A stretch of 64,000 nt of DNA from Mytilisepta virgata. Its lineage: Eukaryota; Mollusca; Bivalvia; Mytilida; Mytilidae. Location: the NCBI GenBank assembly GCA_028015205.1, contig CM051513.1:44830841-44894840 (forward strand), read 5' to 3'. Of the stretch, positions 23,810 through 61,244 are shown piece after piece. The position numbers and the translations under genes were made by a program. The number at the start of each line of letters is the position of its first letter. Position 1 is the first letter of the stretch. Below the pieces are notes generated by a model. That model was not told where the DNA came from. It made no database searches and was given only the letters and a program-made list of their open reading frames with translations.

Positions 23810-25110
23810 CCCCCGTGTGGGTCCCGGGGACACAATAGAATAGGCCCACAGCTCCTCGGCTTGGCGTAAGAGGCCCCTAAAGAGGCGACATGTTTGCCGT
23901 GTGTCGCAAACCCGTGTCGGTAATAGGGAGTGTTCCTGGATGGCCGGATAAACGGTTCCGATCACCATCTGGGGCACAATCTTTACCTAGACGGAAGGCC
24001 GGATGGACCCGATTCGGTCAATCGGCTGGTCACACCAATTCCTTTTGTAACATGAAATATTTTTTATTTTTATATATCACATAAACATTCTAAATTCTAA
24101 ATTTCTGATCTGATGGATTGGTGTTGGCTTATGGGTCACAAAACTCAACAGGTTCAATTTTTGCTTTTCAGTTTGGAATTCCTTTTTGTTATTGTTGTTG
24201 TTTTCTATTTATTATTTCTGAATATTTAATTCCAAAGCATAGTTATTAAACTTCTCTTTAATTAAAATATTATTTATCATGTTTTTCCCCCTTCAACTAT
24301 TTTTGTTACATACATTTTTGAACTTTTAATTTGGAAAATTTAATTATTTGTACACCCAGTTCAAACAATGGCTCGATGGTCCCGGTCCAGCCATTTACTG
24401 GTCATGTCTTGCCCTCTGCTGTTTTCTCGTGGTTGTTTGAAAAGATCAAAGGGAGCCCTCAATGATACCTTGGATGGGTGGTAACACTGCATCTAGGTTG
24501 ATGTTTGGGTTCCTGGGTCTTGGAAGATGATCACTGACGGAAACACGGAGAAGGCGGTGGCTCATGGGGCAAGGCTTCCTCGGCTTAATGAGGCCACATG
24601 TTTGCCGTGTGTGGATACCCGTATGGATAGAGGACGGGATCCTGGTGGCTGAAACACGCCACTTTGGCCCTTACTTTATCTTAAACGGGCGGTCGGATGG
24701 GCCCGGTCCTGATCAATCGGCTGGTCACGCCAAGCCCTTGAACTTGACCTATTTCCAAAATGTACAACAATAGTACCAATTATATAGGCTGGGTTCAAGA
24801 AGGCGGTGGCTCATGGGTCAATCGTGTAGATGTTACTTTGGGCGGTTGTCTTGCCGGGCAACCCCTGGCACAAGGCTTGCGCCCATTAAGAGGTACTCTA
24901 TGCGAGTATCTTATTCTAGTATCCCTGGTGCTTGTCGCAGATGTGGCGGACGTGCGTCGTTCTGATGTATTCTGGTATCCATCATGGATGCTAGAGTGCA
25001 TCAGGGCGATGAATGCATCACGCTTGTCGCAAATGTGGCAAGCATACATCGTGTTGATGCTGCTCCGAGGTGGGCGGGGAGCTAGGGTAACAAAAAATAT
25101 ATACATCACC
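23810..25110 (+). promoter_or_regulatory. 5' UTR and presumed internal promoter of LINE B
   Basis: A GC-richer leader of 1.3 kb, shared with LINE A (7494-8769), precedes ORF1. It contains two related blocks around 'cctcggcttggcgtaagagg' (about 23855) and 'cctcggcttaatgagg' (about 24578), each followed by 'cacatgtttgccgtgtgt'-type text, so it is partly an internal duplication. The frame of ORF1 is open upstream for 117 codons, but I take the ATG at 25111. Confidence 0.6.
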
Positions 25111-29500: not shown

Positions 29501-30215
29501 TCCATCTTCCAGTTCTATATTTACAGCTGAAGCAAGAGCTATTATTCTTGCTTTGAAATTCATAAGATCTTCTGATAAACAAAACTTTCTAATTTGCTCA
29601 GATTCTCTTTCATGTTTACTGGCTATAGAAAGTCAAAAGTATAAAAGCCCTTTAATTTCACATATAATTGAATTCTATAAAAGGCTTGTCGATATGGGTA
29701 AACAAATAATATTTTTCTGGATACCTAGTCATATTGGTATAAGAGGAAACACAGTTGTAGATAGGATAGCGAAGGATGCTTTAAAGGATCCCATTACTAA
29801 TGCGTCAGTGCCATATACTGATTTTAAACCTTTGATTTTTAAGTATATTATACGTCTGTGGCAGTCCCAGTGGGATCTGCTCACAGCCAATAAATTACAT
29901 TCTATTGAGCCAATTGTTGGCAAGAATGTTTGTTTCTCTGGCAAAAGCCGAAGAGATCAAGTTGTTTTAACTAGATGTCGCATTGGCCACACTAGGACGA
30001 CTCACTCTTTTATTTTAGAAAGTGAGCCGCCTCCTGAGTGTATACCTTGCCAATGTCGACATAGTATTAAACATCTTTTAATTGACTGTGTAGATAAATC
30101 CGACATTATTTCTCGGTACTACACAGTCAACAATATGAAAGATTTATTTACAAAGGTTGCTGGCAGCCATATATTACAATATTTGAAGGACGTAGGACTA
30201 TACTCGGGAATATAG
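26532..30215 (+). CDS. LINE B ORF2: endonuclease, reverse transcriptase and RNase H
   Basis: The frame is open from 26532 but has no ATG near its start. It lies in the -1 frame relative to ORF1 and overlaps it, so frameshifting or reinitiation is likely. The APE-type endonuclease begins at once (WNCRG about 26553, QETHL, MGDFNAHNPIWG about 26920, SDHFPIIL about 27150). The reverse transcriptase has GPDDIHYKLL, NYRPIALTS, FFDLEKAYDT, GVPQGSILS and the YVDD site (LYVDDFLICY, about 28530). RNase H has TDGSKDGD, TAEARAIILAL, CSDSLSCL and WIPSHIGIRGN (29420-29755). A C-terminal CxC...H...C cluster follows at about 30040. All catalytic residues I can check are present. It nicks target DNA and copies the element RNA in place. 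Confidence 0.92.
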   Translation, partial: KTKNIIQWNCRGLKINLIELSLLAQTFLPVAFCLQETHLKENDNINIKNYSLYTTRVKQDERAAGGSSILVNNDIIHSQISLKTDLQAVAIRITHNKTITLCSVYIPPNCPLEINQLKSLIDQLPAPFLLMGDFNAHNPIWGSGSQNDKGKKIEDFLNQESLCIFNDGSDTYLHPGNGSYSAIDLTICDPSLLLDYSWQVHDDLCGSDHFPIILENLFPSTSERVARWKFDKANWPLFEQLCRDELRTDIFHSVSDPILKFTEILVSIAERTIPKTSTDPKQPSKPWFDDDCEEVKKHRKKAERRFNMNPTSDNLSNVCIFRAKARRTFKQKRRKSWQNFVSKINSHTPMNKVWNFIQKINGKNRKNNLHHLKDGQTLLTSEKDISNKLGETFSKHSSTQNYTQEFQQIKNRTEKTKLNFRSKNTEDYNSPFSLDELKNSLSKAHDTACGPDDIHYKLLKHLPDTSLQTLLNILNSIWETGDLPSMWKLATVVPIPKPGKDHFEPSNYRPIALTSCVCKTMERMINDRLVWFLEANGLLSNIQCGFRQGRSTLDHLVRFESFIRNGFAKGEHVVSVFFDLEKAYDTTWKYGILKDLNDMGLKGRLPTFIDNFLSDRQFKVKVNTTMSDPFEQEMGVPQGSILSVTLFSIKINSLAKTLQNNVEGSLYVDDFLICYRAKNMNNIERQLQLTLNKIEKWATENGFKFSNSKTVCMHFCNKRKLHLDPELTLYNSPIKVVKETKFLGLLFDSKLSFLPHIKMLKAKCLKALDILKVVSSTDWGADKNILLNLYRSLVRSKLDYGSIIYGSARKSYIKILDTVHHQGLRLALGAFRTSPVESLYVEANEPSLHNRRIKLGLQYLTKLKAYPSNPSYDCVFKPLYDDLFEQHENKIPPFGIRIKPHISGCNINLDEIAPIDVPQSPPWLVPKPKFIFDIRKHKKSETNPIEIQQKFAEIKSHFQEFDTVYTDGSKDGDRVAAAAVYGQRAATLRLPSSSSIFTAEARAIILALKFIRSSDKQNFLICSDSLSCLLAIESQKYKSPLISHIIEFYKRLVDMGKQIIFFWIPSHIGIRGNTVVDRIAKDALKDPITNASVPYTDFKPLIFKYIIRLWQSQWDLLTANKLHSIEPIVGKNVCFSGKSRRDQVVLTRCRIGHTRTTHSFILESEPPPECIPCQCRHSIKHLLIDCVDKSDIISRYYTVNNMKDLFTKVAGSHILQYLKDVGLYSGI

Positions 30216-46354: not shown

Positions 46355-46360
46355 TGCATG
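46355..46360. repeat. 6-bp target-site duplication, left
   Basis: TGCATG immediately outside the palindromic element; the exact partner is at 61239-61244. Six-base duplications are characteristic of Polinton/Maverick integration by a retroviral-type integrase. Confidence 0.85.
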
Positions 46361-46409
46361 AGTAGTATGTGGGCACAGTTCAGGTCGCATTTGAGGTGGT
46401 TCTGAGGTG

Positions 46410-46800
46410 GTGCTACCGGAAGTGACGTCAACCGGAAATGACGTGACCGGAACCGGAACTCAGGTGACCGGAACCGGAAGTGATTTTTGCGCGCATGCGC
46501 AACCGGAAGTGGGTGTTTTTTTCCGCCCTTTGTTGACGGAAGTGACGTAAGTCACGTGGTAGGACCCGGATGTGTGTTCTGCGCATGTTCAAGAACCGGA
46601 AGTACCCGGAAGTGGTTTGCGCAACCGGAAGTAGGGTGTTTTTTCCGCCATTTGTTGACGGAAGTGACGAAAGTCACGTGGTAGGACCCGGATGTGTGGT
46701 CTGCGCATGTTCGGGCGGAACCGGAAGTGGTTGGTGCAACCGGAAGTAGTGGGTTTTCTCCATTGACGGAAGTGACGCAAGTCACGGACCCGGAAGTTTC
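46410..46800. promoter_or_regulatory. CpG-rich terminal cluster of ETS, CRE, NRF1 and E-box motifs (left)
   Basis: In about 390 bases there are about nine CCGGAAGT (ETS core), a TGACGTCA (CRE), three GACGGAAGTGACG, GCGCATGCGC (NRF1-like) near 46491 and two TCACGTGG (E-box). A block of about 115 bases ('gacggaagtgacg', 'tcacgtggtaggacccgga', 'ctgcgcatgttc') is repeated twice. This composition is that of TATA-less CpG promoters and contrasts with the AT-rich flank. It lies 1.1 kb upstream of the polymerase start. Confidence 0.7.
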
Positions 46801-47234
46801 ATGCTTCACCAGATTGAATTATCTCCCCTTTTCCCGCATTTCTCGGTCGTCTCTGGTTCTTTCATCGGTCTGATACTCTCACTGATATGTCGAAGTCCGA
46901 GAGTATACGAAGTACACTATTGGATTATCTCCCCTTATCCCGCTATTTTCAACTGTGGGGGTGCTGTTTTCTGTGAGGACTAGGATTGGATTATGTCCCC
47001 TTACCTCCAAGTGATGCTTGTCACCAATGGAGGGGTATCCTTAGCAACCGCCTTAGCAACGGCGGTCCATTTCATTGCATTCACTTAGTTTCTCTTCTCT
47101 TGCCCCATCCCGTTCTTTGCTGCTCATGGCTACTCAGGCTTGTTGCTGTTCGTCATCGCTGCTCATCTCTTGTTCTTTGCTGCTCAACGCTGCTCTGTAC
47201 TCAGACCTGAAAGCACCCTAAAGACAATCGTTTA
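46801..47234. repeat. Outer copy of the arm module
   Basis: It contains 'gtccgagagtatacgaag', 'attggattatctccccttt', 'ttggattatgtcccctta', 'acggcggtccattt' and a 'ttgctgctcat' low-complexity run. The same blocks in the same order recur, diverged, at 52676-53539. The polymerase gene is thus bracketed within each arm by diverged direct repeats. Confidence 0.75.
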
Positions 47235-47335
47235 CCCTAACACTAGTTCTGCTTTGCAGCCTGCTTCAAAGTCATGTTTCAAAGGGTGGATTGGTTTCAA
47301 TCCCTTATGACTTTGAAGTGGTACTAGTGTTAGGG
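47235..47335. repeat. Stem-loop repeat ending in CCCTAACACTAGT / ACTAGTGTTAGGG
   Basis: The 101-base segment has inverted ends CCCTAACACTAGT and ACTAGTGTTAGGG and an inner pair CTTCAAAGTCAT / ATGACTTTGAAG. Another version occupies 53540-53645 in the centre, and the mirror of this one is at 60249-60349. Confidence 0.8.
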
Positions 47336-47344
47336 ATAAGATTA

Positions 47345-47590
47345 TTTTAGGGTTAGGTAAGTATTTTATTATTTTATAATTTTTTTTCTATTTATATTAT
47401 CATATTTTTTTTTATTTAATATATTTACATATTTTTTTAATTTTTTATTATTTTTTTTTTTTTATATATAATATTTTTTTTTATTATTATTTTTTTTAAT
47501 TTTTATTATTATTATTTTTATTTTTTTAATTTTTTAATTTTTAATTTTTTTTATTTTTTATTATTATTATTTTTATTTTTTATATTTTTT
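47345..47590. other. T-rich low-complexity stretch upstream of the polymerase (left)
   Basis: Almost entirely T and A with T runs of up to about 14; mirrored at about 59995-60240. Such a stretch is easily melted; whether it helps replication is speculation. Confidence 0.7.
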
Positions 47591-47659
47591 GGCGTCCATG
47601 TTGGATCCCGTTAATGTGACGTCATGGAAATTTCCATTAGAAAACGTGTTGAAACATGT

Positions 47660-47870
47660 CGGTGGACGCGGACCTGAGCGTAGACACTCATGGTGCCCTC
47701 TTTTACGTCCGCGTTCAGGAAAAAAAAATCGAAAATTTCGGTCGACGATGACCTGAACGAAGACACCCATGGTGCTCTCTATTCCGTCCGCGTTCAGGAA
47801 AAAATCGAAAATTTTGGTCGACGCGGACCTGAGCGAAGACACCCTTGGTGTTCTCTTTTGAAAAGGTAAC
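47660..47870 (+). repeat. Tandem repeat of about 80 bp just upstream of the polymerase ATG
   Basis: About two and a half copies of a unit with 'gacctgagcgaagacaccc', 'atggtgctctctattccg', 'tccgcgttcaggaaaaaa' and 'tcgaaaattt.ggtcgac'. The third copy runs into the coding start. It probably forms the 5' leader. The GCGGACCTGA core recurs near 53500. Confidence 0.75.
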
Positions 47871-47874
47871 GACT

Positions 47875-50800
47875 ATGTTCTCTTGCGAGAAGTGCAGTAA
47901 GACGTTTACGGAGAAGAGAAGCCTGATTCGCCACCAGAAGACACATGCTGTTGCGGACCAGACGTATTCATGCCAGGTATGTGGAAAGGAGTTTACCAGA
48001 GCAGATGTCAGGAATCGCCACCAGGAGTCCCACCAGTACACCCTGGAGTGTCCAGACTGTGGGCAGTACTTTAACAGATCGGACAACCTTGCTCGCCACA
48101 GACTGTTGCATACCAAGCCAGATGCCAAGCCCAGGATGATGAAACCAGTCAAGAGACCAGCCTCGCCACTACCTGGCCCCAGTGCGGAAAGACGCAGGAT
48201 GAGCAGACCAGACAACCTACCAGTGAAGACAGCCATCAACCTTCAGCCAGACGTATTGCCAGAAGATCCCGATACCAGGGTTTTGTACCTGAGACACTGG
48301 CAGACCATCCGGACAGAAGAAAATACCGGCAACCGTGTCCAGGATCGGTTCAACTTTACGTTGAACGAAATTACAACTGGTACCTTTCCTGACATGGTTC
48401 GCCACATGTTCGAACTGCAGACCACGGCCTTCAAGATCAACGTGTCGTTTGGCTTTGTACTGAGGAACGTAGAGACCGGAGAACTTAGATACTTCCATTC
48501 CAGCCAGAACAACGCCAGGTTTTTCAACATACCACACCTGATAAGAAACGAAGAAGACATAGAGCAGTTTCTGGAAGAATTGAGCCGTCACGACATTTTG
48601 GAGTTCATCCGGCAGCAGAGACCAGATACCAAGTGGGTGGTGCATTTACTGACAAATGCCACGTTTTATGTCAACAAGTTGGTGGAACATCCCATAGGAG
48701 CCAGAGTCGTGTTACCAGACTTCATTTTGAAAAACCGTGGTGTCGTCGCACTGGTTGCTGGATCCCATGGGCCATATAATGACAATTTGTGTTTTTTCCG
48801 ATGTTTGGCCGTCCACCGTGGAGCTCCCGTGAAAGACGTAGAAGTACCTGCCAAGACTTACCATCGCCAATATTTGCAGAAGACAGAAATGGCCGGCGGT
48901 GATTTCAAGGGGATTTGTTTAGACGATTTGGCGTACATCGAACCACTGTTCCAACTCAACATCTGTGTGTACGATCTTCAAGAGACAGAAGACGGCGACG
49001 TAGCGGCGAGATTAGTACGACGTTCTCCTTACAGTTTCCAGGACACCATGAACTTGAATTTGTACGACAACCATTTTAGTTATGTCAGCAACATGGAGAA
49101 ATACAGCCACAGTTACCTGTGTTCAAAATGTGACAAGATGTGGAAGCATGTGGGTATGCTTCATAGACACGAGAGAACCTGCACCGGCGAAGTACTCTAC
49201 AAATACCCCGGCGGAGTGTACCATACACCACAGACAGTGTTCGAACGTTTGGAGGACGAAGGAATCCAAGTTCCGGTAGAAGACAGATATTATCCGTACA
49301 GAGCCACCTACGATATAGAGGCGATGCTTCAACCTACAGACAAACCGAGGTCGGATAAATTGGAATGGACCAGTCAACACGTTTTGCTCAGCGTTTCCGT
49401 GTGTTCCAACGTACCGGAGTTTACAGAGCCAATTTGTTTCGTGTCCGAAGGCGATAGCAGTGAAACAGTTGATTCGTGTTTGATACATTTGACAGAAATA
49501 AGTGACAAAGCCTTTCGCCTACTGATGCCCAGGTACGCTGGTGTATTTGAAGAGATCCAAGAGAGACTGGACCGGGACCTGGAAGAATACCAAGACGACG
49601 AAGAGCGAGAACGCCAGGAAAAGAAACATCACCTGTACAAGTTGAAGCAGCAACTAGAACGACATCTCCAAGAATTACCCGTGATTGGGTTCAACACCGG
49701 GAAATACGACGTGAACGCCATGAAGATAGATTTCTTCACTCGTCTGGTGGAAAGTCACAAGATAAAGTATACAGTGAAGCGCAATAACAATTTCATGTGT
49801 ATCAAGACGGAGAAGTTGAAATTTTTGGACATCACCAACTACCTGGCGCCCGGCTTTAGTTACTCACAGTTTTTGAAAGCCTACGGCTGTGCGGAAGAGA
49901 AAGGATTTTTTCCATACGAGTGGATGACGGGTTTAGACAAGTTGGCAGTGACGGAGTTACCACCACACCAGGCATTTTTCAGTACGCTGAAAAACGAGAA
50001 CATTGCACCCGAAGAGTACCAGCTGTGTCGCCAAGTCTGGCAGGAAAAGAAAATGAAGAACGTGAAAGAGTTCCTGATATGGTACAACAACAAAGACGTG
50101 GAGCCCATGCTGGAAGCCATCGAGAAGATGTTTGTATATTACAAGGGATTGAAGGTGGACATGTTTAAACACGGCATCAGCGTACCGGGACTCACACTGA
50201 AAACCATGTTCGATGGTCTATCCGATTATTTCACCGTTCCGGACGAGAAGAACAAAGATCTGTACGAGTTATACAAAGAAAACATAGTGGGTGGACCCAG
50301 CATCGTCTTCCACAGATACCACGAGAAAGACCAGACCTTCATCCGGCCTGCTGAATACGAAGACCCAAAACCGTGCAAGAAGATCTACGGTGTGGACGCC
50401 AATGCTTTGTACCTGTGGAGCATCATGCAGGATATGCCAACGGGTCACTTCGTCCGACGCAAGAGCGAGGACCATTTTAAAAGACAGACACCTCGAAGGT
50501 ACGAAAGAATGGCAATCGAGTGGATGGAATGGGAAGCCAAGGAGACAGGACACCACATACGTCACCAGGGGAACGACACGGAAAAACTGATCGGACGTCG
50601 GCGCCTTCCCGTGGACGGCTACTGTAAGGATACTAATACAGTTTACGAGTTCCAGGGCTGCCTGTGGCACGGACATTGTTGTCGCCTGACTCGGGGAAAG
50701 ACAGAAAACCCGTTGAACGGAAAGAGCTTGGAAGAATTAAACAAGGCCACCCGAGAAAAAATAGAGTACATTACAGAAAACGACTACCAAGTGAAACAGA

Positions 50801-52068
50801 TGTGGGAGTGCGAATGGGATCGGTTAAAGAAAGAAGACCAAGGAATCAAGACCTTCGTGTCTCAGAGACAGAGACCCTGCGATCGTTTCGCCACCATGAC
50901 CGAAGACGACATCATGAGAGCCGTGATGGAGGACAAGTTGTTTGGTGCCTTAGAAGTGGACCTGCACGTACCTGAGGACCTAAAGTCAAAATTTGCAGAA
51001 ATGCCTCCAGTCTTCAAGAACGTGGATGTGTCCAGAGACGACATTGGGGACCACATGAAGGGTTATGCAGAAGAAAAAGGAATCATGTCCCAGCCTAGAA
51101 AGTCTTTAATCGGCAGCATGTTTGGAGAGAAGATCATGGTGATATCCCCGTTGCTGAAATGGTACGTCAACCACGGACTGAAAGTCACCAAGATTTACCA
51201 AGTGGTGGAGTACACACCATCGGCGTGTTTCAGAGCCTTCGGAGATCAAGTCAGTGATGCCAGGCGAGCCGGAGATACCGACCCAAATAAGAAGATAATT
51301 GCCGAAAACGAGAAACTGAGGGGAAATTCCAGCTACGGCAAGACGGTGACCAACAAGGAAAGACACACGGATGTGATTTACTGCCAGGAACACCAGATCA
51401 GTCGCTACCTCGTGGATCCTTCTTTCCGCCGGTGCAACCAGCTGAGTGACAAAACTTTCGAAGTGGAAATGAGTAAGAAGACCATACACCTGGACCTGCC
51501 CATGCACATTGGGTGTTTCGTTTACCAGTACGCCAAGCTTCGGATGTTGGAATTTTATTACGATTTTATGGACGTTTTTGTGGATCGCCGTGATTATCAA
51601 TATTGTGCAATGGACACCGACAGTGCCTACATGGCTCTCTCTGGCGATAGTTTGGAGGAAGCGATCAAACCGGAGTTGCGTCGGCGCTTTGAAGCAGAGA
51701 AGAAGAATTGGTTTCCCCGTACCGACACACCACAACTGGCTGCTTGGGACAAGAGGACTCCAGGACTATTCAAGACAGAATTCAGTGGTGACGGGATGAT
51801 TGCCCTGTGTAGCAAGACGTACTTCTGCTTTGGAGACGAAACCAAGTTCAGCTGTAAAGGAGTCAACAGGAGAACAAACGACATCAACAAGGAGAAATAC
51901 ATGGACGTTCTCCTGTCGAAGAACTCTGGCTCCGGAACCAACAGAGGGTTTCGCTCTGTAGACAACCAAATCTATACCTACTTGCAAGAGCGAGCTGGTT
52001 TTTCGTACTTTTACCCAAAACGTAAAGTTTTGGCGGACGGGGTGTCTACGACACCCTTAGATATTTAA
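47875..52068 (+). CDS. pPolB: Protein-primed-type family B DNA polymerase with C2H2 fingers (left copy)
   Basis: The first ATG is at 47875; the frame is open ten codons further up but only from a TTG. The product is 1397 residues. C2H2 fingers lie at residues 4-24, 33-53 and 59-79, with a fourth near 415-435. A segment YNDNLCFFRCLAVHRG lies near 305. The 3'-5' exonuclease signatures are YDIEAM (about 480), GFNTGKYDVN (about 605) and WYNNKDVEPM (about 738). Polymerase motifs are YGVDANALYL (A, about 841), LRGNSSYGK (B, about 1150), YCAMDTDSAY (C, about 1246) and SKTYF (KxY, about 1313). An insert with TVYEFQGCLWHGHC near 925 resembles the endonuclease-like insert of such polymerases. All catalytic Asp residues are present, so the enzyme looks active. 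It would replicate the linear element from its ends; no separate terminal-protein gene is seen. Confidence 0.92.
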   Translation: MFSCEKCSKTFTEKRSLIRHQKTHAVADQTYSCQVCGKEFTRADVRNRHQESHQYTLECPDCGQYFNRSDNLARHRLLHTKPDAKPRMMKPVKRPASPLPGPSAERRRMSRPDNLPVKTAINLQPDVLPEDPDTRVLYLRHWQTIRTEENTGNRVQDRFNFTLNEITTGTFPDMVRHMFELQTTAFKINVSFGFVLRNVETGELRYFHSSQNNARFFNIPHLIRNEEDIEQFLEELSRHDILEFIRQQRPDTKWVVHLLTNATFYVNKLVEHPIGARVVLPDFILKNRGVVALVAGSHGPYNDNLCFFRCLAVHRGAPVKDVEVPAKTYHRQYLQKTEMAGGDFKGICLDDLAYIEPLFQLNICVYDLQETEDGDVAARLVRRSPYSFQDTMNLNLYDNHFSYVSNMEKYSHSYLCSKCDKMWKHVGMLHRHERTCTGEVLYKYPGGVYHTPQTVFERLEDEGIQVPVEDRYYPYRATYDIEAMLQPTDKPRSDKLEWTSQHVLLSVSVCSNVPEFTEPICFVSEGDSSETVDSCLIHLTEISDKAFRLLMPRYAGVFEEIQERLDRDLEEYQDDEERERQEKKHHLYKLKQQLERHLQELPVIGFNTGKYDVNAMKIDFFTRLVESHKIKYTVKRNNNFMCIKTEKLKFLDITNYLAPGFSYSQFLKAYGCAEEKGFFPYEWMTGLDKLAVTELPPHQAFFSTLKNENIAPEEYQLCRQVWQEKKMKNVKEFLIWYNNKDVEPMLEAIEKMFVYYKGLKVDMFKHGISVPGLTLKTMFDGLSDYFTVPDEKNKDLYELYKENIVGGPSIVFHRYHEKDQTFIRPAEYEDPKPCKKIYGVDANALYLWSIMQDMPTGHFVRRKSEDHFKRQTPRRYERMAIEWMEWEAKETGHHIRHQGNDTEKLIGRRRLPVDGYCKDTNTVYEFQGCLWHGHCCRLTRGKTENPLNGKSLEELNKATREKIEYITENDYQVKQMWECEWDRLKKEDQGIKTFVSQRQRPCDRFATMTEDDIMRAVMEDKLFGALEVDLHVPEDLKSKFAEMPPVFKNVDVSRDDIGDHMKGYAEEKGIMSQPRKSLIGSMFGEKIMVISPLLKWYVNHGLKVTKIYQVVEYTPSACFRAFGDQVSDARRAGDTDPNKKIIAENEKLRGNSSYGKTVTNKERHTDVIYCQEHQISRYLVDPSFRRCNQLSDKTFEVEMSKKTIHLDLPMHIGCFVYQYAKLRMLEFYYDFMDVFVDRRDYQYCAMDTDSAYMALSGDSLEEAIKPELRRRFEAEKKNWFPRTDTPQLAAWDKRTPGLFKTEFSGDGMIALCSKTYFCFGDETKFSCKGVNRRTNDINKEKYMDVLLSKNSGSGTNRGFRSVDNQIYTYLQERAGFSYFYPKRKVLADGVSTTPLDI

Positions 52069-52177
52069 TCGGATGAACGGCTGACCGACTCGATTGTACA
52101 TATGTACTTTATGTAGTGGGAAAGCTTTTCATTTGATGTATGAACAGACCACTCTTTTTTGAGTCGTATGTTAACTG

Positions 52178-52345
52178 ATAACAAAAAAAAAAAAAAAAAA
52201 AAAAAAAAGAAAAAAAGAAAAAATTAAAAAAGAAAAAAAGAAAAGAAAAAATTAAAAAAGAAAAAAAGAAAAAATTAAAAAAAAAAGAAAAAAAGAAAAA
52301 ATTTTAAAAAAAAGTAAAAAGTAACAAAAAGAAACCAAAAAAAGG
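52178..52345. other. A-rich low-complexity tract downstream of the polymerase (left)
   Basis: Runs of A interrupted by 'agaaaaaattaaaa' text; mirrored at about 55240-55407. It could follow a retro-copied tail or be simple slippage. Confidence 0.7.
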
Positions 52346-52424
52346 AAAGGTTAATGCAGCCTATGTATATACTTGTATATATGTAGACAGTTACCAGCCT
52401 GTCAATGCAGAGTAGCCTTTTTAT

Positions 52425-52495
52425 GAACTAGGAACCTGTGATCAAAAACACAGGAGCTCAACCGACAGAGCTGCCTAGCCCGTCCCCCAGGTGGC
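52425..52495 (-). ncRNA. tRNA-like relic (left arm)
   Basis: The minus strand reads GGCAGCTCTGTCGGTTGAGC (A-box and D-arm-like), then CCTGTG...CACAGG (anticodon-arm-like, eight-base loop), then a poor T arm 'ttcctagttc'. The folding is imperfect, so it is a relic of a tRNA or SINE head rather than a working tRNA. Confidence 0.35.
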
Positions 52496-52675
52496 GGATA
52501 GGGGACCCCCTCTCATTGAGGGTTGTCAGGTCATAATACGAAAAGCCTGACCGCGGACCATAGTGGGTGTTTGGAAAAAAATAAACTATGTTTTAACAAA
52601 AATATTAATTTGTTTGTGTTATTAACTAAATTTACAATCATATTACACTTTCTGATATTCAGCTTATAGAGGAAA

Positions 52676-53539
52676 GTGATGTTGCTGTTCTTCTCTTGCT
52701 CCACGCTGTTCATCGCTGCTCTTGTCTTGTTCTGTGTTGTTCTTGTCTTCTTCTGTGCTGTTCTTTCCTGTCAGTTATGGCGAGGTCCGACAGTATACGC
52801 AGTACAATGGGACTATTTGGTTATCTCCCCTTTTCCTGTGATTTTCATTCTCGATCGTCTCTCGGTCTGTCATTGGACTATATAGGGTTAGGGTATTGCA
52901 TTGTGTCCCTAGGGGCTATTCCTCTTACTGTTTAAGTCCGAGAGTATACGCAAAACAATGGGACTATTGGATTACCTCCGGGTCTCTGGGTCAGTCATCG
53001 GACAGTATAGGGTCTCGCCTCGAGTGTCTAGGGACTGATACTCTCATTGTTATGTCGAAGTCCAAGAGTATACTAAATACGGAGTGGATTATGTCCCCAT
53101 TTCCCAAACTTTTCACCCCGGGTGGTGTTTTTCGTTTGCTCAAGGAAAGTCCAAAGGTTGGGTTGGATTATGTCCCTTTAACCCCAGCTGATGCTGTCAC
53201 CGCTAGGTCAATAGAGGGGTGTCCTGAGCAACTACCTTAACAACGACGGTCCATTTAATTGCTCTATGCTGCTCTTTGCTGTTCATCGCTACTCATGACT
53301 GTGCTCATTTCGGTTTTTTTGGGGGCTACTTGTCACTTTTCGCTGCTGCTGCTGCTCCTGGTGGTGGTCGCTGTTAGTTGTTGTTGGTGCTGCTGCTGCT
53401 GCTGCTGCTGAGGAGGTCGGATTCTTACTGTTTCGTTATAAGTCACCTCTGGGTCTCGTTGATGTAACGATGGACATCAAAGATGGCTGCGCCCACATAA
53501 CGCGGACCTGAAAGAAAGCACCCTTATGACAAACGTTTA
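52676..53539. repeat. Inner copy of the arm module
   Basis: Diverged duplicate of 46801-47234, with three or more 'gagagtatac' blocks (52785, 52940, 53063) followed by 'ggattatgtcccc'-type text, then 'acgacggtccattt' and 'tgctgctctttgctgttc'. A (GCT)n run lies near 53340-53410. Open frames such as 52896-53240 are unsupported. Confidence 0.7.
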
Positions 53540-53645
53540 CCCTAACACTAGTTCTGCTTATCAGCCTGCTTCAAAATCATGTTTCAAAGGCTAGCCCAAT
53601 CTTGGGCTAAATCCCGGATGAATTGAAGTGGTACTAGTGTTAGGA
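53540..53645. repeat. Central copy of the CCCTAACACTAGT stem-loop
   Basis: It has the same ends and 'cagcctgcttcaaaatcatg' as 47235-47335, but the loop differs ('ggctagcccaatcttgggct'). It straddles the left arm/spacer junction and has no mirror on the other side of the spacer. Confidence 0.75.
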
Positions 53646-54038
53646 TTAGGGTTAAGTTAGGATAAGGTTAGATTTAGGATTAAGGTTAAAATTATGTTAG
53701 GGTTAGTGTTAGGGTTAGAGTTAAGTTAGATTTAGGGTTAGAGTAAGGGATTAGGGTAGGGTTAGCATTAGGGTTAGAGTTAGGGCTATAGTTAGGGTTT
53801 ATTTAGGTTTAGGGTTAGAGTAAGGGGTTAGGGTAGGTTTACATTAGGGTTAGAGTTAGGGCTAGAGTTAGGGTTAGGTTTAGTGTTAAGTTAGTGTTAG
53901 GGTTAGTGTTAGGGTTATTGTTAGGGTTAGGGGTTAGAGTTATGGTTAGTGTTAGAGTTAGGGTTAGGTTTAGGACTAGGGTTAGGGTTAGGGTTAGGGA
54001 GGGTTAGGGTTAGAGTTATGGTTTAGGTTAGGACTCGA
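53640..54038 (+). repeat. Degenerate TTAGGG-like array forming the centre of the palindrome
   Basis: About 400 bases consist of GTTAGGGTTAG-type units mixed with 'gttagagttaag', 'gatttaggg' and 'gttagtgttag'. Only one strand orientation is present, so it is not part of the palindrome. The animal telomere repeat is TTAGGG, but the array is too irregular to be a recent telomere. Confidence 0.8.
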
Positions 54039-54039
54039 G

Positions 54040-55079
54040 TTAGGGTAAACGTTTGTCATAAGGGTGCTTTCTTTCAGGTCCGCGTTATGTGGGCGCAGCC
54101 ATCTTTGATGTCCATCGTTACATCAACGAGACCCAGAGGTGACTTATAACGAAACAGTAAGAATCCGACCTCCTCAGCAGCAGCAGCAGCAGCAGCACCA
54201 ACAACAACTAACAGCGACCACCGCCAGGAGCAGCAGCAGCAGCGAAAAGTGACAAGTAGCTCCCAAAAAACCGAAATGAGCACAGTCATGAGTAGCGATG
54301 AACAGCAAAGAGCAGCATAGAGCAATTAAATGGACCGTCGTTGTTAAGGTAGTTGCTCAGGACACCCCTCTATTGACCTAGCGGTGACAGCATCAGCTGG
54401 GGTTAAAGGGACATAATCCAACCCAACCTTTGGACTTTCCTTGAGCAAACGAAAAACACCACCCGGGGTGAAAAGTTTGGGAAATGGGGACATAATCCAC
54501 TCCGTATTTAGTATACTCTTGGACTTCGACATAACAATGAGAGTATCAGTCCCTAGACACTCGAGGCGAGACCCTATACTGTCCGATGACTGACCCAGAG
54601 ACGGGGAGGTAATCCAATAGTCCCATTGTTTTGCGTATACTCTCGGACTTAAACAGTAAGAGGAATAGCCCCTAGGGACACAATGCAATACCCTAACCCT
54701 ATATAGTCCAATGACAGACCGAGAGACGATCGAGAATGAAAATCACAGGAAAAGGGGAGATAACCAAATAGTCCCATTGTACTGCGTATACTGTCGGACC
54801 TCGCCATAACTGACAGGAAAGAACAGCACAGAAGAAGACAAGAACAACACAGAACAAGACAAGAGCAGCGATGAACAGCGTGGAGCAAGAGAAGAACAGC
54901 AACATCACTTTCCTCTATAAGCTGAATATCAGAAAGTGTAATATGATTGTAAATTTAGTTAATAACACAAACAAATTAATATTTTTGTTAAAACATAGTT
55001 TATTTTTTTCCAAACACCCACTATGGTCCGCGGTCAGGCTTTTCGTATTATGACCTGACAACCCTCAATGAGAGGGGGT
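54040..55079. repeat. Inner module of the right arm
   Basis: Mirror of about 52506-53545, including the (AGC)n run near 54175-54245 and the 'gtatactctcggac' blocks. Confidence 0.7.
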
Positions 55080-55089
55080 CCCCTATCCG

Positions 55090-55160
55090 CCACCTGGGGG
55101 ACGCGCTAGGCAGCTCTGTGGGTTGAGCTCCTGTGTTTTTGATCACAGGTTCCTAGTTCA
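55090..55160 (+). ncRNA. tRNA-like relic (right arm)
   Basis: Mirror of 52425-52495 on the plus strand, differing by a few bases ('ctctgtgggttgagc' against 'ctctgtcggttgagc'). Confidence 0.35.
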
Positions 55161-55239
55161 TAAAAAGGCTACTCTGCATTGACAGGCTGGTAACTGTCTA
55201 CATATATACAAGTATATACATAGGCTGCATTAACCTTTC

Positions 55240-55407
55240 CTTTTTTTGGTTTCTTTTTGTTACTTTTTACTTTTTTTTTTAATTTTTTCTTTTTTTCTTT
55301 TTTTTTTAATTTTTTCTTTTTTCTTTTTTTTTTAATTTTTTCTTTTTTTTTTTTTTTTTAATTTTTTCTTTTTTTCTTTTTTTTTTTTTTTTTTTTTTTT
55401 TTGTTAT
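55240..55407. other. T-rich (A-rich on the coding strand) tract, right arm
   Basis: Mirror of 52178-52345; the run lengths differ, as expected for slippage-prone DNA. Confidence 0.7.
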
Positions 55408-55516
55408 CAGTTAACAGACGACTCAAAAAAGAGTGGTCTGTTCATACATCAAATGAAAAGCTTTCCCACTACATAAAGTACATATGTACAATCGAGTCGG
55501 TCAGCCGTTCATCCGA

Positions 55517-58500
55517 TTAAATATCTAAGGGTGTCGTAGACACCCCGTCCGCCAAAACTTTACGTTTTGGGTAAAAGTACGAAAAACCAGCTCGCTCTTG
55601 CAAGTAGGTATAGATTTGGTTGTCTACAGAGCGAAACCCTCTGTTGGTTCCGGAGCCAGAGTTCTTCGACAGGAGAACGTCCATGTATTTCTCCTTGTTG
55701 ATGTCGTTTGTTCTCCTGTTGACTCCTTTACAGCTGAACTTGGTTTCGTCTCCAAAGCAGAAGTACGTCTTGCTACACAGGGCAATCATCCCGTCACCAC
55801 TGAATTCTGTCTTGAATAGTCCTGGAGTCCTCTTGTCCCAAGCAGCCAGTTGTGGTGTGTCGGTACGGGGAAACCAATTCTTCTTCTCTGCTTCAAAGCG
55901 CCGACGCAACTCCGGTTTGATCACTTCCTCCAAACTATCGCCAGAGAGAGCCATGTAGGCACTGTCGGTGTCCATTGCACAATATTGATAATCACGGCGA
56001 TCCACAAAAACGTCCATAAAATCGTAATAAAATTCCAACATCCGAAGCTTGGCGTACTGGTAAACGAAACACCCAATGTGCATGGGCAGGTCCAGGTGTA
56101 TGGTCTTCTTACTCATTTCCACTTCGAAAGTTTTGTCACTCAGCTGGTTGCACCGGCGGAAAGAAGGATCCACGAGGTAGCGACTGATCTGGTGTTCCTG
56201 GCAGTAAATCACATCCGTGTGTCTTTCCTTGTTGGTCACCGTCTTGCCGTAGCTGGAATTTCCCCTCAGTTTCTCGTTTTCGGCAATTATCTTCTTATTT
56301 GGGTCGGTATCTCCGGCTCGCCTGGCATCACTGACTTGATCTCCGAAGGCTCTGAAACACGCCGATGGTGTGTACTCCACCACTTGGTAAATCTTGGTGA
56401 CTTTCAGTCCGTGGTTGACGTACCATTTCAGCAACGGGGATATCACCATGATCTTCTCTCCAAACATGCTGCCGATTAAAGACTTTCTAGGCTGGGACAT
56501 GATTCCTTTTTCTTCTGCATAACTCTTCATGTGGTCCCCAATGTCGTCTCTGGACACATCCACGTTCTTGAAGACTGGAGGCATTTCTGCAAATTTTGAC
56601 TTTAGGTCCTCAGGTACGTGCAGGTCCACTTCTAAGGCACCAAACAACTTGTCCTCCATCACGGCTCTCATGATGTCGTCTTCGGTCATGGTGGCGAAAC
56701 GATCGCAGGGTCTCTGTCTCTGAGACACGAAGGTCTTGATTCCTTGGTCTTCTTTCTTTAACCGATCCCATTCGCACTCCCACATCTGTTTCACTTGGTA
56801 GTCGTTTTCTGTAATGTACTCTATTTTTTCTCGGGTGGCCTTGTTTAATTCTTCCAAGCTCTTTCCGTTCAACGGGTTTTCTGTCTTTCCCCGAGTCAGG
56901 CGACAACAATGTCCGTGCCACAGGCAGCCCTGGAACTCGTAAACTGTATTAGTATCCTTACAGTAGCCGTCCACGGGAAGGCGCCGACGTCCGATCAGTT
57001 TTTCCGTGTCGTTCCCCTGGTGACGTATGTGGTGTCCTGTCTCCTTGGCTTCCCATTCCATCCACTCGATTGCCATTCTTTCGTACCTTCGAGGTGTCTG
57101 TCTTTTAAAATGGTCCTCGCTCTTGCGTCGGACGAAGTGACCCGTTGGCATATCCTGCATGATGCTCCACAGGTACAAAGCATTGGCGTCCACACCGTAG
57201 ATCTTCTTGCACGGTTTTGGGTCTTCGTATTCAGCAGGCCGGATGAAGGTCTGGTCTTTCTCGTGGTATCTGTGGAAGACGATGCTGGGTCCACCCACTA
57301 TGTTTTCTTTGTATAACTCGTACAGATCTTTGTTCTTCTCGTCCGGAACGGTGAAATAATCGGATAGACCATCGAACATGGTTTTCAGTGTGAGTCCCGG
57401 TACGCTGATGCCGTGTTTAAACATGTCCACCTTCAATCCCTTGTAATATACAAACATCTTCTCGATGGCTTCCAGCATGGGCTCCACGTCTTTGTTGTTG
57501 TACCATATCAGGAACTCTTTCACGTTCTTCATTTTCTTTTCCTGCCAGACTTGGCGACACAGCTGGTACTCTTCGGGTGCAATGTTCTCGTTTTTCAGCG
57601 TACTGAAAAATGCCTGGTGTGGTGGTAACTCCGTCACTGCCAACTTGTCTAAACCCGTCATCCACTCGTATGGAAAAAATCCTTTCTCTTCCGCACAGCC
57701 GTAGGCTTTCAAAAACTGTGAGTAACTAAAGCCGGGCGCCAGGTAGTTGGTGATGTCCAAAAATTTCAACTTCTCCGTCTTGATACACATGAAATTGTTA
57801 TTGCGCTTCACTGTATACTTTATCTTGTGACTTTCCACCAGACGAGTGAAGAAATCTATCTTCATGGCGTTCACGTCGTATTTCCCGGTGTTGAACCCAA
57901 TCACGGGTAATTCTTGGAGATGTCGTTCTAGTTGCTGCTTCAACTTGTACAGGTGATGTTTCTTTTCCTGGCGTTCTCGCTCTTCGTCGTCTTGGTATTC
58001 TTCCAGGTCCCGGTCCAGTCTCTCTTGGATCTCTTCAAATACACCAGCGTACCTGGGCATCAGTAGGCGAAAGGCTTTGTCACTTATTTCTGTCAAATGT
58101 ATCAAACACGAATCAACTGTTTCACTGCTATCGCCTTCGGACACGAAACAAATTGGCTCTGTAAACTCCGGTACGTTGGAACACACGGAAACGCTGAGCA
58201 AAACGTGTTGACTGGTCCATTCCAATTTATCCGACCTCGGTTTGTCTGTAGGTTGAAGCATCGCCTCTATATCGTAGGTGGCTCTGTACGGATAATATCT
58301 GTCTTCTACCGGAACTTGGATTCCTTCGTCCTCCAAACGTTCGAACACTGTCTGTGGTGTATGGTACACTCCGCCGGGGTATTTGTAGAGTACTTCGCCG
58401 GTGCAGGTTCTCTCGTGTCTATGAAGCATACCCACATGCTTCCACATCTTGTCACATTTTGAACACAGGTAACTGTGGCTGTATTTCTCCATGTTGCTGA

Positions 58501-59710
58501 CATAACTAAAATGGTTGTCGTACAAATTCAAGTTCATGGTGTCCTGGAAACTGTAAGGAGAACGTCGTACTAATCTCGCCGCTACGTCGCCGTCTTCTGT
58601 CTCTTGAAGATCGTACACACAGATGTTGAGTTGGAACAGTGGTTCGATGTACGCCAAATCGTCTAAACAAATCCCCTTGAAATCACCGCCGGCCATTTCT
58701 GTCTTCTGCAAATATTGGCGATGGTAAGTCTTGGCAGGTACTTCTACGTCTTTCACGGGAGCTCCACGGTGGACGGCCAAACATCGGAAAAAACACAAAT
58801 TGTCATTATATGGCCCATGGGATCCAGCAACCAGTGCGACGACACCACGGTTTTTCAAAATGAAGTCTGGTAACACGACTCTGGCTCCTATGGGATGTTC
58901 CACCAACTTGTTGACATAAAACGTGGCATTTGTCAGTAAATGCACCACCCACTTGGTATCTGGTCTCTGCTGCCGGATGAACTCCAAAATGTCGTGACGG
59001 CTCAATTCTTCCAGAAACTGCTCTATGTCTTCTTCGTTTCTTATCAGGTGTGGTATGTTGAAAAACCTGGCGTTGTTCTGGCTGGAATGGAAGTATCTAA
59101 GTTCTCCGGTCTCTACGTTCCTCAGTACAAAGCCAAACGACACGTTGATCTTGAAGGCCGTGGTCTGCAGTTCGAACATGTGGCGAACCATGTCAGGAAA
59201 GGTACCAGTTGTAATTTCGTTCAACGTAAAGTTGAACCGATCCTGGACACGGTTGCCGGTATTTTCTTCTGTCCGGATGGTCTGCCAGTGTCTCAGGTAC
59301 AAAACCCTGGTATCGGGATCTTCTGGCAATACGTCTGGCTGAAGGTTGATGGCTGTCTTCACTGGTAGGTTGTCTGGTCTGCTCATCCTGCGTCTTTCCG
59401 CACTGGGGCCAGGTAGTGGCGAGGCTGGTCTCTTGACTGGTTTCATCATCCTGGGCTTGGCATCTGGCTTGGTATGCAACAGTCTGTGGCGAGCAAGGTT
59501 GTCCGATCTGTTAAAGTACTGCCCACAGTCTGGACACTCCAGGGTGTACTGGTGGGACTCCTGGTGGCGATTCCTGACATCTGCTCTGGTAAACTCCTTT
59601 CCACATACCTGGCATGAATACGTCTGGTCCGCAACAGCATGTGTCTTCTGGTGGCGAATCAGGCTTCTCTTCTCCGTAAACGTCTTACTGCACTTCTCGC
59701 AAGAGAACAT
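55517..59710 (-). CDS. pPolB: Protein-primed-type family B DNA polymerase with C2H2 fingers (right copy)
   Basis: A complete second copy, 1397 residues, with its ATG at 59710 on the minus strand. All fingers, exonuclease and polymerase motifs are as in the left copy. Only two residues differ: Gly to Ser near 1062 (MKSYAEEK here) and Ala to Val near 1263 (EEVIKPEL here), neither in a catalytic motif. Both genes point towards the centre. Near-identity over 4.2 kb means either a very recent origin of the palindrome or continuing gene conversion between arms. Confidence 0.92.
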   Translation of the reverse strand: MFSCEKCSKTFTEKRSLIRHQKTHAVADQTYSCQVCGKEFTRADVRNRHQESHQYTLECPDCGQYFNRSDNLARHRLLHTKPDAKPRMMKPVKRPASPLPGPSAERRRMSRPDNLPVKTAINLQPDVLPEDPDTRVLYLRHWQTIRTEENTGNRVQDRFNFTLNEITTGTFPDMVRHMFELQTTAFKINVSFGFVLRNVETGELRYFHSSQNNARFFNIPHLIRNEEDIEQFLEELSRHDILEFIRQQRPDTKWVVHLLTNATFYVNKLVEHPIGARVVLPDFILKNRGVVALVAGSHGPYNDNLCFFRCLAVHRGAPVKDVEVPAKTYHRQYLQKTEMAGGDFKGICLDDLAYIEPLFQLNICVYDLQETEDGDVAARLVRRSPYSFQDTMNLNLYDNHFSYVSNMEKYSHSYLCSKCDKMWKHVGMLHRHERTCTGEVLYKYPGGVYHTPQTVFERLEDEGIQVPVEDRYYPYRATYDIEAMLQPTDKPRSDKLEWTSQHVLLSVSVCSNVPEFTEPICFVSEGDSSETVDSCLIHLTEISDKAFRLLMPRYAGVFEEIQERLDRDLEEYQDDEERERQEKKHHLYKLKQQLERHLQELPVIGFNTGKYDVNAMKIDFFTRLVESHKIKYTVKRNNNFMCIKTEKLKFLDITNYLAPGFSYSQFLKAYGCAEEKGFFPYEWMTGLDKLAVTELPPHQAFFSTLKNENIAPEEYQLCRQVWQEKKMKNVKEFLIWYNNKDVEPMLEAIEKMFVYYKGLKVDMFKHGISVPGLTLKTMFDGLSDYFTVPDEKNKDLYELYKENIVGGPSIVFHRYHEKDQTFIRPAEYEDPKPCKKIYGVDANALYLWSIMQDMPTGHFVRRKSEDHFKRQTPRRYERMAIEWMEWEAKETGHHIRHQGNDTEKLIGRRRLPVDGYCKDTNTVYEFQGCLWHGHCCRLTRGKTENPLNGKSLEELNKATREKIEYITENDYQVKQMWECEWDRLKKEDQGIKTFVSQRQRPCDRFATMTEDDIMRAVMEDKLFGALEVDLHVPEDLKSKFAEMPPVFKNVDVSRDDIGDHMKSYAEEKGIMSQPRKSLIGSMFGEKIMVISPLLKWYVNHGLKVTKIYQVVEYTPSACFRAFGDQVSDARRAGDTDPNKKIIAENEKLRGNSSYGKTVTNKERHTDVIYCQEHQISRYLVDPSFRRCNQLSDKTFEVEMSKKTIHLDLPMHIGCFVYQYAKLRMLEFYYDFMDVFVDRRDYQYCAMDTDSAYMALSGDSLEEVIKPELRRRFEAEKKNWFPRTDTPQLAAWDKRTPGLFKTEFSGDGMIALCSKTYFCFGDETKFSCKGVNRRTNDINKEKYMDVLLSKNSGSGTNRGFRSVDNQIYTYLQERAGFSYFYPKRKVLADGVSTTPLDI

Positions 59711-59714
59711 AGTC

Positions 59715-59925
59715 GTTACCTTTTCAAAAGAGAACACCAAGGGTGTCTTCGCTCAGGTCCGCGTCGACCAAAATTTTCGATTTTTTCCTGAACGCGGACG
59801 GAATAGAGAGCACCATGGGTGTCTTCGTTCAGGTCATCGTCGACCGAAATTTTCGATTTTTTTTTCCTGAACGCGGACGTAAAAGAGGGCACCATGAGTG
59901 TCTACGCTCAGGTCCGCGTCCACCG
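59715..59925 (-). repeat. Tandem repeat of about 80 bp upstream of the right polymerase
   Basis: Mirror of 47660-47870. Confidence 0.75.
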
Positions 59926-59994
59926 ACATGTTTCAACACGTTTTCTAATGGAAATTTCCATGACGTCACATTAACGGGATCCAACATGGACGCC

Positions 59995-60240
59995 AAAAAA
60001 TATAAAAAATAAAAATAATAATAATAAAAAATAAAAAAAATTAAAAATTAAAAAATTAAAAAAATAAAAATAATAATAATAAAAATTAAAAAAAATAATA
60101 ATAAAAAAAAATATTATATATAAAAAAAAAAAATAATAAAAAATTAAAAAAATATGTAAATATATTAAATAAAAAAAAATATGATAATATAAATAGAAAA
60201 AAAATTATAAAATAATAAAATACTTACCTAACCCTACAAT
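59995..60240. other. A-rich low-complexity stretch (right arm)
   Basis: Mirror of 47345-47590. Confidence 0.7.
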
Positions 60241-60248
60241 AATCTTAT

Positions 60249-60349
60249 CCCTAACACTAGTACCACTTCAAAGTCATAAGGGATTGAAACCAATCCACCC
60301 TTTGAAACATGACTTTGAAGCAGGCTGCAAAGCAGAACTAGTGTTAGGG
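60249..60349. repeat. Mirror copy of the CCCTAACACTAGT stem-loop
   Basis: Inverse of 47235-47335 in the right arm. Confidence 0.8.
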
Positions 60350-60784
60350 TAAACGATTGTCTTTAGGGTGCTTTCAGGTCTGAGTACAGAGCAGCGTTGA
60401 GCAGCAAAGAACAAGAGATGAGCAGCGATGACGAACAGCAACAAGCCTGAGTAGCCATGAGCAGCAAAGAACGGGATGGGGCAAGAGAAGAGAAACTAAG
60501 TGAATGCAATGAAATGGACCGCCGTTGCTAAGGCGGTTGCTAAGGATACCCCTCCATTGGTGACAAGCATCACTTGGAGGTAAGGGGACATAATCCAATC
60601 CTAGTCCTCACAGAAAACAGCACCCCCACAGTTGAAAAGAGCGGGATAAGGGGAGATAATCCAATAGTGTACTTCGTATACTCTCGGACTTCGACATATC
60701 AGTGAGAGTATCAGACCGATGAAAGAACCAGAGACGACCGAGAAATGCGGGAAAAGGGGAGATAATTCAATCTGGTGAAGCATG
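60350..60784. repeat. Outer arm module (right)
   Basis: Mirror of 46801-47234. Confidence 0.7.
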
Positions 60785-61195
60785 AAACTTCCGGGTCCGT
60801 GACTTGCGTCACTTCCGTCAATGGAGAAAACCCACTACTTCCGGTTGCACCAACCACTTCCGGTTCCGCCCGAACATGCGCAGACCACACATCCGGGTCC
60901 TACCACGTGACTTTCGTCACTTCCGTCAACAAATGGCGGAAAAAACACCCTACTTCCGGTTGCGCAAACCACTTCCGGGTACTTCCGGTTCTTGAACATG
61001 CGCAGAACACACATCCGGGTCCTACCACGTGACTTACGTCACTTCCGTCAACAAAGGGCGGAAAAAAACACCCACTTCCGGTTGCGCATGCGCGCAAAAA
61101 TCACTTCCGGTTCCGGTCACCTGAGTTCCGGTTCCGGTCACGTCACTTCCGGTGACGTCATTTCCGGTTGACGTCACTTCCGGTAGCACCACCTC
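60785..61195. promoter_or_regulatory. CpG-rich terminal cluster of ETS, CRE, NRF1 and E-box motifs (right)
   Basis: Mirror of 46410-46800 with one additional CCGGAAGT/CRE unit near 61140-61160. Confidence 0.7.
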
Positions 61196-61238
61196 AGCAC
61201 CACCTCAAATGCGACCTGAACTGTGCCCACATACTACT

Positions 61239-61244
61239 TGCATG
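61239..61244. repeat. 6-bp target-site duplication, right
   Basis: TGCATG directly after the terminal CATACTACT; matches 46355-46360. Confidence 0.85.

Follow-up and report, generated by a model that had tools for sequence, protein, structure and literature searches.

Palindromic Polinton-type insertions in the genome of the bivalve Mytilisepta virgata: probable fold-back satellites of a co-resident Polinton

Introduction

Why would a virus-like transposon be palindromic from end to end, with its DNA polymerase gene standing once in each arm? The question is raised by a 64,000-nucleotide stretch of the bivalve Mytilisepta virgata (assembly GCA_028015205.1, contig CM051513.1, positions 44,830,841 to 44,894,840 of the forward strand; hereafter the window), in which a single palindromic insertion spans positions 46361-61238. 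Polintons, also called Mavericks, combine a protein-primed family B DNA polymerase (pPolB), an RVE integrase, an FtsK-like ATPase, a protease and capsid genes in 15-20 kb (PMC4028283, excerpt), and Maverick particles have not been observed according to an excerpt of PMC8097293. We find that the window element is one of many palindromes in this genome that share their ends with an integrase-bearing Polinton, and we put at about 0.68 the probability that such a palindrome is a fold-back (snap-back) satellite, inserted and lacking an integrase, whose parent Polinton/Maverick resides in the same genome.

Results

A palindromic insertion with Polinton-type ends

The element begins with AGTAGTATG... 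on the left and closes with ...CATACTACT on the right, and copies of TGCATG abut both ends in direct orientation. A preliminary description of the window had named this 6-bp duplication outside inverse ends, and the duplications, together with the AGTAGT-type ends, confirm a single insertion with termini of the Polinton/Maverick type. Its features are the following (window positions; strand; description and basis):

46355-46360; no strand; left target-site duplication TGCATG (sequence)
46361-46786; plus; outermost ~426 bp, inverted at the right end of an asymmetric Polinton copy as its terminal inverted repeat (L034 7209-7637 corresponds to arm positions 1-426)
46361-53555; plus; left palindrome arm, ~7.2 kb (99.5% identity with the reverse complement of 54030-61238)
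47875-52068; plus; intact 1397-amino-acid (aa) open reading frame (ORF) with N-terminal C2H2 fingers and a predicted protein-primed-type family B DNA polymerase (homologues, domain scan)
52597-53555; plus; inner part of the arm, for which the asymmetric Polinton copy has no continuous counterpart
53514-53644; plus; inner block, 84% identical to a subterminal block at about arm position 864-989 in the same orientation and 82% to L033 1081-1238
53556-54029; no strand; unpaired centre, 474 bp (ends of the arm alignment)
53635-54032; plus; degenerate TTAGGG-type array filling most of the unpaired centre
54030-61238; minus; right palindrome arm (arm alignment)
55517-59710; minus; second intact 1397-aa polymerase ORF, with 2 nucleotide differences from the first
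61239-61244; no strand; right target-site duplication TGCATG (sequence)

Aligned by blastn, the left arm and the reverse-complemented right arm are 99.49% identical over 7204 columns, and in a global alignment 7172 positions agree, against 19 substitutions and a few indels, so that arms of about 7.2 kb, nearly identical in inverse, are indeed present; the spacer between them, previously given as 492 bp, measures 474. A weak TTAGGG-type array also lies near the outer ends (window 47101-47400; 1001-1300 of L033). Because the array recurs there and the adjoining inner block resembles the subterminal block, the element's own end is the simpler source of the centre, and a telomere fusion, which the TTAGGG repeats might also have suggested, was set aside. 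We inspected the complementary arm differences of the window copy for small loop inversions and saw no such pattern.

The arms encode a family B polymerase of predicted protein-primed type

The two 1397-aa ORFs converge on the centre of the element. Pfam made no direct polymerase call for this protein (no PF03175) and matched the C2H2 fingers alone. A search of 5.8 billion proteins with residues 100-1397 scored 7997 candidates and returned 981 proteins; identity reached 69% in the best of these and ~45-50% over most of the query in many, lancelet and echinoderm proteins among them. Homologues that are ~50% identical over most of the ORF carry PF03175 (DNA_pol_B_2; type B, organellar and viral), whose cut-off was passed by three of five re-scanned homologues and which matched in 6 of 15 aligned members. 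DANALYL, KLxGNSxYGK and MDTDSAY are conserved across these 15 members, and DANALYL, NSSYG and DTDS were spotted by eye in the window ORF; we take them to be PolB motifs. No relative was confirmed when viral contigs were searched with the polymerase, and in PDB searches the matches listed (the best 60 of 192 and of 85) were zinc-finger proteins. The window element is thus read, by way of its PF03175-bearing homologues, as carrying a family B polymerase of the protein-primed type, for which protein priming is predicted, and the earlier statement that each arm holds one complete family B polymerase stands on this assignment and on the two intact frames. The polymerase genes of the window copy and of a second palindrome (L035) show 12 differences (nonsynonymous divergence, dN, 0.0021; synonymous divergence, dS, 0.0059), too few to judge selection. 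An OTU-like stretch (DNLCFFRCLA) was also read by eye in the polymerase ORF.

A probable helper in the same genome

An asymmetric copy at C1:29511834-29527107 (halves L033 and L034) has the same terminal 27-mer and a terminal repeat of ~430 bp. Its left end and PolB gene match the window arm up to position 52596, the two polymerases showing 20 amino-acid differences over 1396 codons, so that both window arms correspond to one and the same end of this copy. Beyond the polymerase, L034 encodes a PC4-domain protein (PF02229, E 3e-18), a fragment resembling the poxvirus A32 ATPase (PF04665, E 0.008, weak and below cut-off) and an integrase with an RVE core (E 6e-15) and a chromodomain (E 9e-10). 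A 434-aa ORF without a Pfam hit is a capsid candidate: it matches scallop proteins named F54H12.2-like by NCBI, a name that we take to mark Maverick capsid proteins, and its matches also include a periwinkle protein and an entry that bears the label of a Bathymodiolus gill symbiont; the preceding ORF presumably encodes a penton-like protein. A protease was not found in L033/L034 by Pfam.

Five L034 proteins (integrase, ATPase-like, 258-aa, penton-like and capsid-like) gave no tblastn match in the window element, nor in 18 palindrome halves (L035-L052). By its sequence the window element lacks integrase and capsid genes and hence is not itself a complete Polinton. Its earlier naming as one Polinton-like element holds as to ends and polymerase, the latter being the sole gene that the arms encode. 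Its termini are identical in type to those of an integrase-bearing copy in the same genome, as in a non-autonomous derivative, and a Polinton of the L033/L034 type is the probable helper of the palindromes, a dependence that the missing integrase would impose.

Near its right end, L034 also encodes (5987-7036) a protein in which a CARD (caspase recruitment domain) and a PC4 domain are joined; about 50 N-terminal residues of this protein are found again immediately upstream of the polymerase, also in the window copy.

Two multi-copy palindromic families

The terminal 27-mer, allowing up to 3 mismatches, occurs at at least 368 sites in the 1.03-Gb assembly (188 forward, 180 reverse), this and the other motif and end counts given here being lower bounds. 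From the best 100 of these end sites, ranked by similarity to the window end, 84 were paired (plus then minus, 7-21 kb apart) into 42 two-ended elements, and 16 ends without a listed partner were dropped; by this ranking the layout shares describe the sample and are not genome-wide estimates. The preliminary description had proposed counting the copies that share the window layout, and they form a multi-copy class: 28 of the 42 are symmetric palindromes, beside 2 asymmetric palindromes, 6 Polinton layouts, 2 single-arm copies and 4 left without an assigned layout.

Ten further elements were fetched as halves. In nine the palindrome covers the whole length or most of it, and one is asymmetric; nine (the asymmetric one included) have exact 6-bp duplications, the remaining one showing a single mismatch. 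For another 30 pairs we used mirrored probes, 400 or 1000 bases long; in 18 of them the inverted match is 240 bp or longer and at least 98% identical. In two pairs (L061/L062, L111/L112) the arms belong to one family and face opposite ways, with their positions shifted. The Polinton layout, in which the polymerase and the right-half genes lie on opposite sides, is present in five, one pair is a single-arm copy, and four (L067, L079, L089, L103) could not be placed. The window copy and the second single-arm copy, L053/L054, complete the 42. Five of the six Polinton-layout copies are thus known from probes alone; in L055/L056 this layout consists of right-half genes with polymerase and integrase motif sites. 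The single-arm copies, one per family, are 7.2-7.3 kb long and have exact 6-bp duplications (C13:83170609-83177803, GAGGAG; C13:1739768-1747053, CACCAT; L053/L054, 7.2 kb, is one of them), and are possible parents or deletion products of the palindromes.

Gene motifs gave a consistent picture. A 33-base polymerase motif occurs at at least 252 sites and an integrase motif at at least 110. Among the first 100 polymerase sites, all exact and on contigs C1 to C10, 40 form 20 head-to-head pairs, against a chance expectation of ~0.12 (16 of the 20 are spaced 4.0-4.5 kb), and no pair in any other orientation was seen within 12 kb. For a further 44, an integrase follows on the same strand no more than 8 kb downstream (38 at 3.7-4.1 kb), as judged from 100 of the 110 integrase sites, and no listed integrase lies within 12 kb of the 20 head-to-head pairs, the window copy included. 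The remaining 16 are neither paired nor linked to an integrase; they include decayed palindromes, since one (C1:30106575) is a palindrome whose second polymerase is cut short. Next to a CA repeat, two terminal 27-mers of like orientation (C10:44748258 and C10:44748718) are separated by 460 bases, perhaps a duplicated end.

A second and larger family carries a PC4 gene in each arm, and eight of the ten elements fetched as halves belong to it. Its motif occurs at at least 303 sites, and 90 of the first 100 form 45 head-to-head pairs, with no pair in another orientation among them; since the sites mostly pair in this way, the hit count amounts to ~150 copies. Two palindromic families therefore exist, one with polymerase arms, to which the window copy belongs, and the larger one with PC4-gene arms.

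The arms of these eight elements share a terminal region, a 31-bp tandem array (measured in L049 alone), an inverted PC4 gene and a polymerase fragment. Left and right outer ends are alike, and the arms of L041, L043, L049 and L051 have the left-end type of the asymmetric copy, continuing past its ~430-bp repeat. The innermost part of the window arm is common to this family as well (53394-53529 against L041, 88%). At the centre of several copies, a short hairpin loop separates a CCCTAA array to its left from a TTAGGG array to its right. The TTAGGG-type array is clearly inverted around the axis in five of eight copies (L037, L039, L041, L045, L047), and all four axes read out (L037, L041, L045, L047) have a stem around a loop of ~16 bases within the inverted arrays; L051/L052 shows both array orientations across its halves, and within the stretches counted L043/L044 and L049/L050 have a clear array on only one half. 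The centre loop is found in both orientations (L045 versus L037), and we dropped this flip-flop as evidence of hairpin transfer because insertion in either orientation gives the same picture.

PC4 proteins of the family are 77-100% identical to the L049 copy, and the reading frame runs without a stop in 14 of 16 arms, L045/L046 having one stop in each arm. Between subclades PC4 diverges at dN 0.12-0.16 and dS 0.48-0.92, and the neighbouring 177-aa and 161-aa stretches are far less divergent. Since dS in PC4 reaches 0.9 against far less next to it, the sequences suggest allele exchange, together with purifying selection on PC4; within a copy, the two arms hold near-identical versions of the divergent allele. 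We rejected the 161-aa and 177-aa ORFs as genes, as dN is about equal to dS between copies, with no sign of selection, and part of the 177-aa ORF runs antisense to the polymerase fragment.

The two arms of a copy are sisters in most copies

In a tree of the 2.46-kb inner core, to which L043 contributes 793 bases, the arms are sisters in all eight PC4-family copies (supports 0.75 to 1.00), core identity being 99.5-99.9% within copies and mostly 94-98.6% between them, with an L041-L044 cluster reaching 99.6%. In a tree of the outer 1.3 kb of 10 palindromic copies, the arms are sisters in nine (support 0.998 for the window copy, 1.000 for L035/L036). The outer 450 bp of the window copy are 99.8% identical to the partner arm and at most 97.5% identical to other copies. 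The polymerase gene is likewise closer within the copy in the window element and in E107, in a region where all copies are near identical. Seemingly different ends on the two arms of PC4-family copies (79-90% outer identity) came from out-of-register repeat matches, because pairwise global alignment within copies gives 97.4-99.9% over the outer 1.3 kb. In most copies, the two arms share an ancestor more recently than different copies do.

Discussion

We propose that the palindromes arose when a strand of the left end of a Polinton, comprising terminal repeat and polymerase gene, folded back during protein-primed strand-displacement synthesis and copied itself, which would yield a molecule that has a left end on either side and whose arms each contain a polymerase gene. 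Such a palindromic molecule would have a replication origin at either end. Once displaced, its single strand could close on itself as one hairpin with a stem of 7 kb; the open end of this hairpin would resemble a normal terminus and could be primed again; displaced adenovirus strands, whose inverted ends anneal, form such re-primable panhandles (PMC9863843, excerpt). This hairpin stage would erase arm differences, both arms of a new insertion descending from one arm, and the integrase of complete Polintons, acting in trans on the shared AGTAGT ends, would insert the product and generate the 6-bp duplications. The preliminary description had also suggested a snap-back, head-to-head form of a protein-primed replicon; the head-to-head form holds, and the snap-back origin, still an inference, gains support from the two palindromic families and from the sister arms within copies. 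A further step, which we advance tentatively and at somewhat below even odds, is that the palindromes constitute a satellite lineage with a long self-complementary genome whose 7-kb hairpin rebuilds both arms from one in each cycle; the polymerase lineage and the PC4 lineage, the latter with a gene of single-strand-binding type that exchanges alleles, would coexist with their helper and together outnumber it.

Several observations weigh against this proposal. The PC4-family arm is rearranged relative to a Polinton (PC4 inverted, the 5' fragment of the polymerase in plus orientation), so that one simple fold-back is insufficient to produce it; the inner ~1 kb of the window arm has no source in L033, the sole Polinton copy read; and no replication intermediate was seen. 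Nor are arms closest to each other throughout: the outer arms of E39 are not sisters in the 1.3-kb tree, in E35, E65, E69, E77, E97 and E109 the polymerase gene is at least as close to other copies as to its own partner arm, and with short probes L043/L044 resembles another copy more closely along a 773-bp overlap while E85 and E95 tie. Most PC4-family tandem arrays differ in length between arms and, misregistered, show 14-18% difference; in most PC4-family copies other than E49 these arrays alone stand out between the arms. Finally, substitutions between the window arms are clustered: a 3.7-kb stretch, with one 1-base indel inside, is free of them (P ~0.002 under uniform placement, after dropping 7 of the 19 sites, which lie in a poly-A tract or at the inner arm edge), which leans towards patchy conversion or uneven mutation.

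Long inverted repeats undergo gene conversion, and in a less likely alternative the fold-back happened once or twice and the likeness of the arms was then kept by chromosomal conversion between closely facing repeats. The clustering in the window copy and the closeness of the arms, ~0-1.1 kb apart in several copies, fit this account, while the within-copy likeness at many unlinked loci, reaching the outermost 1.3 kb, and the evenly spread arm differences in E35 and E49 speak against it without being decisive. Copying from one arm in each cycle and gene conversion after insertion explain sister arms equally.

Less probably still, a head-to-head duplication within the chromosome doubled a single-arm element (7.2 kb, with a short right repeat), and the resulting compound later moved as one unit. 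In favour of this, single-arm copies with exact duplications are present in both families, yet they are equally explicable as deletions of palindromes; moreover, because a TTAGGG-type array sits at the centres in both families, inverted around a short loop in several PC4-family copies, fold-back at a repeat fits better than duplication of a whole insertion. It is distinctly improbable that the palindromes are kept as a helper-silencing device, in which convergent transcription would give hairpin RNA with an antiviral or self-limiting effect: the polymerase ORFs do converge on the centre, and double-stranded RNA from snap-back dimers has been proposed for adeno-associated virus (AAV; PMC8235507, excerpt), but both window polymerase ORFs are intact and the larger family carries PC4 and no more than a short polymerase fragment. 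That fold-back (template-complement) long reads, a described artefact (PMC12870357), produced a false mirror in the assembly is very unlikely, close to negligible, because the mirror image stops at the element's ends (the 2.75 kb flanking the window element on either side share nothing, and no inverted flank match exceeds 44 bp at 12 further end pairs, two of them from Polinton-layout copies), the target duplications are direct repeats, the arms differ at 19 bases and the layout is repeated at many unlinked loci.

The preferred reading, an inserted fold-back satellite, places the palindromes between several known systems. Like miniature inverted-repeat transposable elements (MITEs) and foldback elements, they have the ends of an autonomous partner and no integrase of their own, but they are 14-kb palindromes with a polymerase or PC4 gene per arm. 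Adenovirus left-end palindromes, such as the symmetric recombinant (SYREC) of Ad12, are likewise forms of a protein-primed replicon in which two inverse left ends surround other DNA; these, however, are products of laboratory virus stocks and are not known as a transposon family. The stem of an adenovirus panhandle is the inverted terminal repeat only, whereas in the palindromes it would be the whole arm. Single-molecule sequencing of AAV found symmetric and asymmetric snap-back genomes (SBG) of either end that replicate with helper functions (PMC8235507, excerpt), and these 5'-SBG and 3'-SBG are likewise self-complementary copies of one parental end. They are, however, virion DNA of a parvovirus that replicates by hairpin ends, and multi-copy chromosomal insertion is not described in that excerpt; the parent of the palindromes would instead have a protein-primed-type PolB and an RVE integrase. 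With Polintons the window element shares the 6-bp target duplication, the protein-primed-type PolB and, as the integrase- and capsid-candidate-bearing copy illustrates, the ends, its AGTAGT terminus corresponding to the (AGT)2-type ends of vertebrate Mavericks (PMC8097293, excerpt). It differs from them in being palindromic end to end, Polinton terminal repeats measuring a few hundred bases.

Palindromic Polintons are not described in the literature searched, which comprised titles and abstract openings (most subscription journals and Repbase lay outside its scope), and no word beginning with 'palindrom' occurs in the main texts of PMC8097293, on vertebrate Mavericks, and PMC10294476, on bivalve transposons. 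Virus stocks are where fold-back defective genomes are known to occur; in this genome such forms would appear as multiplied chromosomal families beside a probable helper, and one assembly may show the ecology of a virus-like transposon together with its defective forms. Should the hairpin cycle prove true, arm divergence would date insertions as long terminal repeat divergence does for retrotransposons, and this clock would be joined by a test of protein-primed Maverick replication. For annotation, half a palindrome resembles a strange polymerase gene, and 14-kb palindromes may collapse or vanish in assemblies.

Other elements in the window

Two copies of a non-LTR retrotransposon lie at window 24748-30215 (plus) and 11838-16744 (plus), with ORFs of 607 aa (no Pfam hit) and 1227 aa (endonuclease, reverse transcriptase and RNase H); the first copy is broken into several frames. 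At 9644-11574 (minus) there is a gene of the tyrosine-recombinase type in two pieces, one matching PF00589 (phage integrase) and the other DUF3504 with QRICH1, presumably an arrangement as in Crypton-type elements.

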